DNA from: Gemmatimonadales bacterium
Lineage (GTDB): Bacteria; Gemmatimonadota; Gemmatimonadetes; Gemmatimonadales; GWC2-71-9
NCBI GenBank assembly: GCA_013820855.1
Contig: JACDHV010000007.1
Span: 1-35,593, forward strand
Direction: 5' to 3'
DNA length: 35,593 bases
Shown here: positions 16,531-34,016 of the stretch, piece after piece
Position numbering within the stretch: the stretch's first letter is position 1
Layout of the letters: every line of letters begins with the position of its first letter
Notes under the pieces: generated by a model
What the model saw: only the letters and a program-made list of their open reading frames with translations
Database searches by the model: none
Told to the model about the DNA's origin: nothing
Position numbers and translations under genes: made by a program

Positions 16531-16943
16531 CAGGCGGCGGCCACGGAGCGCTTGATACGATGCAGGATGGCGGTGAGTCCCTGGGTCCTGGTCATGCCGA
16601 GCGTCTCGCTCAGGCCGAGCTGGTCGAGGAGATCGTCGGGCACTTCGGCCACGGCTTCCGGCGCGGCGCCGTCCAGCGACCGGGCGAGGAGCGACACGAA
16701 CCCCCGGACCGTCGGCGACTCCCGCGGGACGTCGGCATGGATGTGGACCCGGCCGTCCTCGATCTCGACCCAGAGGAAGACCGGGGTCTGGCACTCGTGC
16801 ACCCGGTGATCGCCGGTGGCCTTCTCCCGCTCGAGCCGCTCGGGGAGCGGGGGGAGCTTGCGGGAGTAGTCGAGCAGCGTCTCCAGCCGGGTGGTGCGGT
16901 CGGCGGCCTTGAAGCGGGGAATGATAGTGTCGATACCTGGCAT
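16530..16943 (-). CDS. sufE: SufE-family sulfur acceptor protein
   Basis: SufE accepts persulfide sulfur from a cysteine desulfurase (SufS) and passes it to Fe-S assembly. The 137-residue protein keeps the acceptor cysteine (about Cys51) in RVHECQTPVFLWVE, the counterpart of the GCQSQVWL motif, and the downstream GFVSLLARSLDG region. Start ATG 16943 gives the standard SufE length. The partner sufS is not in the window. The gene sits upstream of rho with a one-base overlap, so the two are probably co-transcribed from the 16944-17010 region, divergently from cimA. Confidence 0.88.
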   Translation of the reverse strand: MPGIDTIIPRFKAADRTTRLETLLDYSRKLPPLPERLEREKATGDHRVHECQTPVFLWVEIEDGRVHIHADVPRESPTVRGFVSLLARSLDGAAPEAVAEVPDDLLDQLGLSETLGMTRTQGLTAILHRIKRSVAAA

Positions 16944-17011
16944 GGGCGAAAGGTAGCCCGCGGAGGGGCGGGGGGGCAGAGCGGGAGCGAGAGACGCGCG
17001 AGTGCCTCCGC

Positions 17012-17041
17012 TTGACGTCGCACCCTGCGGCAATGTATAGA
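17012..17041 (+). promoter_or_regulatory. Sigma-70-like promoter of the cimA leader
   Basis: TTGACG (17012-17017) and TATAGA (17036-17041) are 18 bases apart. The same -35 hexamer and spacing occur before the DUF1015 gene. Initiation is expected at about 17047-17049, essentially at the ATG of the leader peptide. Confidence 0.65.
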
Positions 17042-17048
17042 TATTCAC

Positions 17049-17129
17049 ATGCCCGGCAGCCCCCGCAGCTCGCTCGCGATTCTTCCGCTCCGACTCTCTC
17101 GGAGAGGCGGCGCGCGGGCTTTCGGGTAG
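17049..17129 (+). CDS. Candidate 26-residue leader peptide of cimA (Leu/Ile codons)
   Basis: A short frame runs from ATG 17049 to TAG 17127-17129 and encodes 26 residues. Its middle holds a cluster of branched-chain codons: Leu9 (CTC), Ile11 (ATT), Leu12 (CTT), Leu14 (CTC) and Leu16 (CTC). ATT and CTT are AT-ending codons, unusual in this GC-rich DNA. The ATG falls at the predicted transcription start and has no Shine-Dalgarno, so translation would be leaderless. A terminator hairpin begins 26 bases after the stop and a branched-chain biosynthetic gene follows. Position, composition and context match a ribosome-mediated attenuator. Expression of the peptide is inferred. Confidence 0.6.
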   Translation: MPGSPRSSLAILPLRLSRRGGARAFG

Positions 17130-17154
17130 CAATCGCCCGATCCAGCAGCGGCTC

Positions 17155-17187
17155 GCGGCCTCTCGATCCGAGAGGCCGCTCTCTTTT
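17155..17187 (+). terminator. Intrinsic terminator in the cimA leader (attenuator)
   Basis: The arms GCGGCCTCTC (17155-17164) and GAGAGGCCGC (17170-17179) form a perfect 10-bp stem with loop GATCC, followed directly by TCTCTTTTTCC. It stands before cimA, not after a gene. An upstream GAGAGGC (17102-17108) is complementary to GCCTCTC (17158-17164) in the 5' arm, and CTCG (17098-17101) can also pair with CGAG (17169-17172). An antiterminator fold is therefore available. Confidence 0.75.
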
Positions 17188-17200
17188 TCCGGGAAGCCAC

Positions 17201-18781
17201 ATGCCCGCATCAACGCCGGCGCCGCCGGTCCGACTGTACGATACCACGCTGCGCGACGGCACCCAGCGCGAGGGACTCTCGCTGTCTGTGGAGGATAAGG
17301 TGAAGATCGCCCGCGCGCTGGACCGGCTCGGTGTGCACTACATCGAGGGCGGCTGGCCGGGCTCCAATCCCAAGGATGCCGAGTTCTTCCGGCGCATGCG
17401 GGTCGCGCCGCCGGCCGGCGCGAGGCTCGCCGCGTTCGGCAGCACCCGCCGGGCCGGCGTGCGCTGCGAGGACGACCCCAGCATCCGGGCGCTGGAGGAG
17501 GCCGCGACGCCGGTCGTCACCCTGGTGGGGAAGACCTCGACGCTGCACGTGGACCGGGTGCTCGAGACCAGCCGGGACGAGAACCTCCGCATGGTGGCGG
17601 ACAGCATCGCCTGGTTCAAGCGCCTCGGCCGGGAGGTCGTCTACGACGCCGAGCACTTCTTCGACGGCTGGCGGCTCGATCCGGGTTACGCCTTCGCGAC
17701 GCTCGAAGCCGCCGCCGCCGCGGGCGCGGACACGCTGGTCCTCTGCGACACCAACGGCGGCGAGCTGCCGGACGTCGTCGCCGAGCGGGTGCACGAGCTG
17801 CGCGCGCGGCTCGGCACCCCCCTCGGCATCCATCCCCACGACGACGCCGGGCTCGCGGTCGCCAACGCGCTCGCCGCCGTCGGCGCGGGCTGCGAGCAGG
17901 TTCAGGGTACCATCAACGGCTACGGCGAGCGCTGCGGCAACCTCGATCTCGTGCCGCTGGTCGCCACCCTCCAGCTCAAGCTCGGGCACCGCCTGCTCTC
18001 GGGAGACGCGCTCGGCAGGCTCAGCGAGATCTCCCACTATGTCGCCGACGTGGCGAACCAGCATCCCGATCCTCACGCACCCTACGTGGGCCGCAGCGCA
18101 TTCGCCCACAAGGGCGGGATCCACGTGGCCGCCATCGCCAAGGTTCCGGAAAGCTACCAGCACGTGGATCCCGCCCTGGTCGGCAACAGCTGCCGCGTGG
18201 TGGTGAGCGAGGTGGCGGGCCGGCGCAACGTCCGGATCCGCGCGCTGGAACTGGGTCTGGCCTCGGGCGGCGAGGAAGGCGCGGTGCTCCAGTTGATCAA
18301 GGAGCTCGAGCACCGGGGCTTTCAGTTCGAGTCGGCCGAGGGGTCGTTCGAGATGCTGCTGCGGCGGAAGGATCCCGCCTATCGCGCCCCGTTCGTCGTG
18401 GACGACTTCACTGTCATCGTGGAGAAGCGCGGGGGAGACGGCATCAGGGCACAGGCCACGGTCAAGCTCCGCGTGGGCGACGAGGTCGTGCACACCGCGG
18501 CGGAGGGAGACGGGCCGGTGAACGCCCTCGACCGGGCGGTACGAAAGGCACTGCTGCCGCACTACCCGGCGCTCGCCCAGGTGCACCTGGTGGACTACAA
18601 GGTGCGCATCGTGGACGAGCACCTGGGCACCGCCGCCCGCCCGAGGGTCATCATCGAGTCAGCGCGCGGGGCGGAGCGGTGGAGCACGGTCGGCTGCTCG
18701 GAAAACATCATCGAGGCGAGCTGGCTCGCCCTCTGCGACGCGCTGGAGCTGGCGCTGCTGAGGCCGGCGGCCGGCGATTGA
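17201..18781 (+). CDS. cimA: (R)-citramalate synthase
   Basis: Condenses pyruvate and acetyl-CoA to citramalate, opening the threonine-independent route to isoleucine. The 526-residue protein has the DRE-TIM metallolyase barrel (YDTTLRDGTQREGLSLSVEDK near 13-33; metal-binding HPHDDAGLAVAN from His211; GTINGYGERCGNLDLVPL) and a C-terminal allosteric dimer domain from about residue 400, as in CimA and isopropylmalate synthase. The early SVEDKVKIA and the GGWPGSNPKDAEFF segment favour the TIGR00977-type citramalate synthase over LeuA. ATG 17201 follows the attenuator; upstream in-frame codons run through the leader and are not coding. Regulation by attenuation in response to Leu/Ile-tRNA charging is inferred. 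Confidence 0.9.
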   Translation: MPASTPAPPVRLYDTTLRDGTQREGLSLSVEDKVKIARALDRLGVHYIEGGWPGSNPKDAEFFRRMRVAPPAGARLAAFGSTRRAGVRCEDDPSIRALEEAATPVVTLVGKTSTLHVDRVLETSRDENLRMVADSIAWFKRLGREVVYDAEHFFDGWRLDPGYAFATLEAAAAAGADTLVLCDTNGGELPDVVAERVHELRARLGTPLGIHPHDDAGLAVANALAAVGAGCEQVQGTINGYGERCGNLDLVPLVATLQLKLGHRLLSGDALGRLSEISHYVADVANQHPDPHAPYVGRSAFAHKGGIHVAAIAKVPESYQHVDPALVGNSCRVVVSEVAGRRNVRIRALELGLASGGEEGAVLQLIKELEHRGFQFESAEGSFEMLLRRKDPAYRAPFVVDDFTVIVEKRGGDGIRAQATVKLRVGDEVVHTAAEGDGPVNALDRAVRKALLPHYPALAQVHLVDYKVRIVDEHLGTAARPRVIIESARGAERWSTVGCSENIIEASWLALCDALELALLRPAAGD

Positions 18782-33861: not shown

Positions 33862-34016
33862 GTGGCACGAGCGAGAGGTCTCCTGGCTTCGGGCCCTCGC
33901 TCGCCTTCCCGGTTTCCCAGTGGCGTTGCTGAGCGAGGTAGGCTGCCCGTTACAGTGGCGGGGCCGCGCCGGATTCACACCGGCTTCCATGGATCTCGAC
34001 TCGCGTGGATCGGTTG
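33862..34016 (-). ncRNA. Cobalamin riboswitch (AdoCbl type)
   Basis: Read on the minus strand, the region contains the conserved core of the cobalamin riboswitch: GGAAGCCGGTGTGAATCC (about 33971-33988), then GCGGCCCCGCCACTGTAACG with the B12 box GCCACTGTAA (33950-33959), and the 3' element AAGCCAGGAGACC (33877-33889). The terminal paired element is formed by GCGAG/CTCGC near the ends. It precedes btuB and points at it. B12 binding would lower receptor expression. The outer boundaries are approximate. The adjoining stem at 34020-34048 (GACGGAGC/GCTCCGTC) may be part of the peripheral structure. Confidence 0.93.

Follow-up and report, generated by a model that had tools for sequence, protein, structure and literature searches.

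The cimA gene (citramalate synthase) of the window, i.e. the whole 35,593-nucleotide stretch of Gemmatimonadales DNA analysed here, is very probably preceded by a ribosome-mediated transcription attenuator, which would switch cimA on when isoleucine is short. On the pyruvate route to isoleucine, citramalate synthase catalyses the first committed step. The case is built on the parts of the leader (Table 1), their conservation in relatives, the matching changes in its stems, the placement of its codons and its folding under simulated ribosome positions. The neighbour on the 5' side of the leader, which we take to be a sufE-like gene starting near 16941, is divergent from cimA, which leaves the terminator without an upstream gene that it could serve. 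The promoter, the 26-codon frame, the terminator and the GAGAGGC motif upstream of it had been pointed out in the original prediction, and all of them were found again at the same positions, the terminator being counted here as 11 pairs.

Table 1. Features of the cimA leader in the window, and genes preceded by similar leaders (R1, model built from the cimA leaders).
Feature	Position	Strand	Sequence or leader	Basis
Promoter: -35 box 17012-17017, 18-nt spacer, -10 box 17036-17041	17012..17041	+	TTGACG, TATAGA	sequence reading; kept in relatives
Leader peptide frame, 26 codons, ATG 17049, stop TAG (17127)	17049..17129	+		sequence; frame-specific Ile conservation
Sensor codons	17073..17096	+	CTC GCG ATT CTT CCG CTC CGA CTC	alignment of relatives
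Segment 1, 5' arm of protector, overlapping sensor codons	17090..17098	+	CCGACTCTC	85.8% of cells paired, 22 sequences
Segment 2, pairs with segment 1 (protector) or segment 3 (antiterminator)	17102..17112	+	GAGAGGCGGCG	alignment, folding
Segment 3, 5' arm of terminator and partner of segment 2	17155..17165	+	GCGGCCTCTCG	pairing
Segment 4, 3' arm of terminator, then T-tract	17169..17188	+	CGAGAGGCCGC, then TCTCTTTTT	pairing
Possible ribosome site of cimA	17191-17196	+	GGGAAG	sequence
cimA, citramalate synthase, start ATG 17201	17201..18781	+		TIGR00977 profile match, 639.5 bits versus cut-off of 450
leuC			Leu leader, MPSLPLIALLLPALRARGGARAHA	R1; gene by family scan
leuA			Leu leader	R1; gene by family scan
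hisG			several leaders, with as many as six consecutive His	R1; gene by family scan
Aspartokinase (thrA) and thrB			Thr leaders (TTTMTIIT)	R1; aspartokinase by family scan, thrB presumed from reading of N-terminus
thrS			Thr leader	R1; gene presumed from reading of N-terminus
aroF, DAHP synthase			Tyr leader	R1; gene by family scan
phhA, phenylalanine hydroxylase			Tyr leader	R1; gene by family scan
pheA, prephenate dehydratase			Phe leader	R1; gene by family scan
metY			Met leader	R1; gene by family scan
asnB, asparagine synthetase			Asn leader (NNN)	R1; gene presumed from reading of N-terminus
ROK-type (Mlc/NagC-like) regulator			Gln codons	R1; gene by family scan

The terminator (17155-17179) comprises 11 pairs, 9 of them G-C, around a loop of 3, and is followed by the T-tract TCTCTTTTT; GAGAGGC at 17102-17108 is complementary to 17158-17164. 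In the window, the protector hairpin is made of 5 + 3 bp with a single A.G mismatch between them. Segment 2 is located within the reading frame and precedes the stop by 15-25 nt. It repeats segment 4 imperfectly (GAGAGGCGGC versus GAGAGGCCGC), and the antiterminator therefore contains a G.G mismatch at a place where the terminator is fully paired. Among 20,000 dinucleotide shuffles of the stretch 17049-17189, 12 gave a perfect stem of 10 bp or more followed by a T-tail, and none combined it with a 7-nt upstream complement; the conservation seen among the relatives weighs far more than these shuffles. An Rfam search at the attenuator site gave nothing at the gathering score and only chance matches up to E = 10. 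Elsewhere in the window, the Rfam search identified a cobalamin riboswitch (33878-33988, minus strand, 72 bits).

We propose that the switch works as follows. First, transcription would start at the leader ATG or no more than a few bases away from it, so that the first ribosome would load on the bare 5' end. Second, when charged tRNA-Ile is scarce, the ribosome would stall at the core Ile codon (ATT, 17079-17081, about 24 nt before segment 2) and hide segment 1 under its leading edge, thereby leaving segment 2 free for segment 3 as the latter emerges. Third, once segments 2 and 3 are paired, segment 4 would be left without a partner, no terminator would form and cimA would be transcribed. Fourth, when isoleucine is ample, the ribosome would reach the stop codon (17127) and segments 1 and 2 would close into the protector behind it; with the protector closed, segments 3 and 4 would form the terminator, and RNA polymerase would stop before cimA. 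When the ribosome footprint (its sizes being assumed from E. coli) was masked at a core Ile codon and the RNA folded up to segment 3, the 2:3 pairing formed in 22 of 22 leaders, which supports, at the level of modelled structures, the earlier proposal that stalling leads to the antiterminator; with the ribosome at the stop codon, the protector formed in 19 of the 22. That proposal had seen a gap in the partial covering of segment 2 by a ribosome at the stop codon. The gap is closed by 17090-17098: this segment pairs with segment 2 behind the ribosome, so that segment 2 need not be covered there. As long as segment 4 has not been transcribed, the free RNA of roughly half of the relatives prefers the 2:3 pairing even with no ribosome stalled on it, and for this reason basal readthrough may be high and may differ between species.

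The start of the leader peptide is predicted to be leaderless or near-leaderless, and this is well supported by the position of the promoter. The gap between the -10 box and the leader ATG (17049) is 7 nt in the window. A TTGAC element and a TA-type -10 box are kept at the same site in 16 cimA leaders of one family (f1), where the end of the -10 hexamer lies 3-11 nt (median 7) from the start codon and no Shine-Dalgarno-like motif was found. A consensus promoter scan missed TTGACG-18-TATAGA solely through its rule requiring a T at the last -10 position. One study treats a TA-like signal some 10 nt upstream as the mark of leaderless genes (PMC3160421). These distances support the original prediction, which had placed the ATG at the predicted transcription start and read the peptide as probably leaderless; and since the median distance between -10 box and leader start is 7 nt across the 16 relatives, a transcription start well downstream of 17049 is unlikely. 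Leaders of other lineages begin in other ways. In family f2 (g55), the promoter lies about 48 nt 5' of the leader frame, and the 5' leader, roughly 40-48 nt long, contains a GGAG motif. In genus g15 (L096, L097, L115), the cimA attenuator follows gltB; the leader peptide begins at the stop codon of gltB or across it, and these three leaders have no promoter of their own in sight. Both cases would suit a conventional 5' leader in the window as well, with transcription beginning upstream of 17049 or from another promoter; yet we consider this unlikely, in view of the promoter spacing and the lack of Shine-Dalgarno-like motifs in the 16 leaders of f1. What f2 and g15 indicate is that a leaderless start is not needed for function, and that the switch has been kept while its start mode has not.

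The amino acid sensed is predicted to be isoleucine, rather than leucine and isoleucine equally, as judged from the following lines of evidence. First, each of the 22 leaders has Ile codons 30 to 14 nt 5' of segment 2, usually as an Ile-Ile pair or a short distance apart. Second, Ile makes up 54 of the 149 codons of the sensor stretch in frame, the counts for the two alternative frames being 1 and 0, whereas Leu is hardly enriched (24 of 149 in frame versus 20 of 149 in a neighbouring frame). Third, ATT, which is rare in the genes of the window (8 ATT, 106 ATC and 5 ATA in seven of them), is preferred among the Ile codons of the sensor stretch (35 ATT, 19 ATC). The original prediction had counted Leu and Ile together as the sensed residues; the Ile part stands, and an equal role of Leu is not supported. 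That the same attenuator senses leucine, or both amino acids alike, appears quite improbable, although the leader peptide of the window, MPGSPRSSLAILPLRLSRRGGARAFG, has four Leu (codons 9, 12, 14 and 16) and one Ile (codon 11), several relatives have 4-6 Leu, and a stall at Leu codons 12 or 14 would mask segment 1 too: besides the codon counts, the commonest Leu codon (at -9) sits inside segment 1, where a stalled ribosome would cover part of segment 2, the g15 leaders have no Leu at all in the sensor stretch, and CimA serves isoleucine. Returning to isoleucine as the signal, most relatives of the same genus have Ile-Ile (tandem ATT ATT) where the leader of the window has Ile-Leu; because one of the two Ile codons is thus a Leu codon (CTT), a shortage of leucine might also relieve termination in this genome.

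The window belongs to a family of Gemmatimonadales other than that of Gemmatirosa, since a genome assigned to the same order but to a different family agrees at 100% with a Gemmatirosa kalamazoonensis plasmid along the full query. A CimA of the window's type occurs in 26 of the 288 genomes of the order, and 23 of these 26 have the leader; 22 leaders, from two families of Gemmatimonadales, were aligned. As for the three genomes without it, a close relative (L091) has its promoter directly before cimA, a natural loss of the attenuator; in L116 cimA adjoins gltB directly and the attenuator is absent; and the locus of L095 is incomplete. Two genomes of the window's genus lack both a CimA of this type and the leader. 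In the aligned leaders, 99.1% of the cells of the terminator are paired, with 3 pairs changed on both sides, and 94.1% of those of the antiterminator, where A-U was replaced by G-C at two pairs in separate lineages; these counts overstate independence, since the sequences are related and two or three events account for most of the double changes. Because the changes in the antiterminator recur in the terminator, segments 2, 3 and 4 move together, segment 2 tracking segment 4. The covarying stems that had been suggested as a check were found as matching changes in the terminator and the antiterminator, but the protector showed no significant covariation among the 22 sequences. Segment 2 is weakened in L085, and in L092 and L117 it is kept though read in another frame, so that in these two leaders the RNA, and not the end of the peptide, is conserved. 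Both the small frame and the complementary segments, whose conservation upstream of cimA had been proposed as a check, are thus kept in the relatives. The model R1 found nothing at E below 0.04 in 80 CimA loci, mostly of other phyla, and the attenuator is therefore not a general companion of CimA. A plain terminator beside a fortuitous small frame, with a hairpin that merely lowers cimA expression and no response to amino acids, would indeed cut readthrough, but is extremely improbable, as there is no upstream gene on the cimA strand to terminate (the presumed sufE-like gene being divergent), segment 2 follows segment 3 through its changes, the Ile codons are kept in frame and position, and leaders of other genes share the architecture with a matching amino acid.

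These other leaders were found with R1, which, although built from cimA leaders only, also detects leaders whose repeated codons match the amino acid of the downstream gene (Table 1). The best R1 scores are 44-68 bits, versus 20-30 bits for terminators alone; the many matches of 20-30 bits, which include the palindrome on the opposite strand, were left uncounted as terminators alone. The leaders of leuA, leuC, hisG, one aroF and pheA start 6-9 nt after a -10 box. With the cimA-trained R1, the leaders of thrB, leuC and the ROK-type regulator reach 8e-17 to 1e-13 per genome, and these scores suggest a shared ancestry of some leaders of the set. We regard as evenly balanced the broader proposal of a phylum-wide, often leaderless attenuator set with a shared RNA core (GGCTCTC..GAGAGGCGGCG...GCGGCC..GGCCGC-T), parts of which would be related by descent and not convergent. 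Its members would have been retargeted by exchange of the codon block: Ile for cimA, Leu for leuA/leuC, Thr for thrA/thrB/thrS, His for hisG, Tyr for aroF/phhA, Phe for pheA, Met for metY, Asn for asnB and perhaps Gln for the ROK-type regulator. In the window's genus, the cimA element is the only attenuator of the set found, and a broader model (R2) gave no second convincing one there. This genus showed no His-rich leader close to hisG; in the one locus with a located start, hisG presumably follows a hisZ-like gene.

Several leaders deserve separate mention. Asn-rich leaders with the same terminator architecture (NRQNSNNP, NRNNNSRNP and LNGNNSLNP, in L238, L243 and L244) precede an asparagine synthetase-like gene and are a candidate Asn-responsive attenuator. 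Attenuator-like leaders, most of them with tandem Gln codons, stand before a ROK-type regulator in L154, L157, L160 and L177, where glutamine control of a sugar regulator is possible. Tyr-rich leaders (L161, L165) precede phenylalanine 4-monooxygenase, which converts phenylalanine into tyrosine. In L166, an OsmC-like gene is preceded by a terminator and by a short frame containing three consecutive Cys (MCPSISICCCLAK); this leader, the gltB leaders (L173, L236, L242) and L191 (one of two metY leaders) are not claimed as amino-acid-matched.

The sequence and the folding together reveal a short frame with codons for the end product, an intrinsic terminator, an exclusive antiterminator and a protector with stalling geometry. 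As these are all the testable defining features of a ribosome-mediated attenuator, the cimA switch belongs to a known kind. The -10 box, moreover, is close to the spacing of about 10 nt expected of leaderless genes (gap of 7 nt here and of 3-11 nt among the f1 leaders), and there is no Shine-Dalgarno motif. Similarly to the enteric trp, his, thr, leu and ilv attenuators, it has control codons in a leader peptide, mutually exclusive protector, antiterminator and terminator, and a T-tract before the first gene; unlike them, it targets cimA, its start codon coincides with the predicted 5' end of the transcript or adjoins it, its segment 2 is part of the reading frame (15-25 nt ahead of the stop) and no Rfam family matches it. 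As far as they are described in PMC13236596, which cites Canestrari 2020, the leaderless polycysteine frames of mycobacteria resemble the cimA leader in being short leaderless frames that act as amino-acid-responsive attenuators, but they read cysteine and belong to Actinobacteria, whereas the cimA leader has a strong conserved terminator; the cys leaders surveyed in PMC1262725 had no obvious intrinsic terminator. The ilvB leader peptides of Corynebacterium, Mycobacterium and Streptomyces (PMC1262725, PMC11857589) likewise have a short frame that carries codons for branched-chain amino acids and is followed by a terminator, and differ, in a comparison made by description and not by sequence, in target gene and phylum. 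In 2010, leader-peptide systems were known from Proteobacteria and Actinobacteria only, to which Firmicutes were then added (PMC2965389). In the literature searched, which was covered in part, we found leader-peptide attenuation neither for Gemmatimonadota nor for cimA, and the phylum, the gene and the breadth of the set appear to be new.

Together, these data place ribosome-mediated attenuation with leaderless initiation, as predicted here, in Gemmatimonadota and on cimA. The Ile codons of the leader provide independent support for the view that the TIGR00977 enzymes serve isoleucine synthesis in these organisms. The three start modes of one and the same attenuator, namely leaderless, with a Shine-Dalgarno-like leader and coupled to an upstream stop codon, amount to a natural experiment on what attenuation requires of initiation, and the wider set would offer a sequence-only map of amino-acid regulation for a little-studied phylum.
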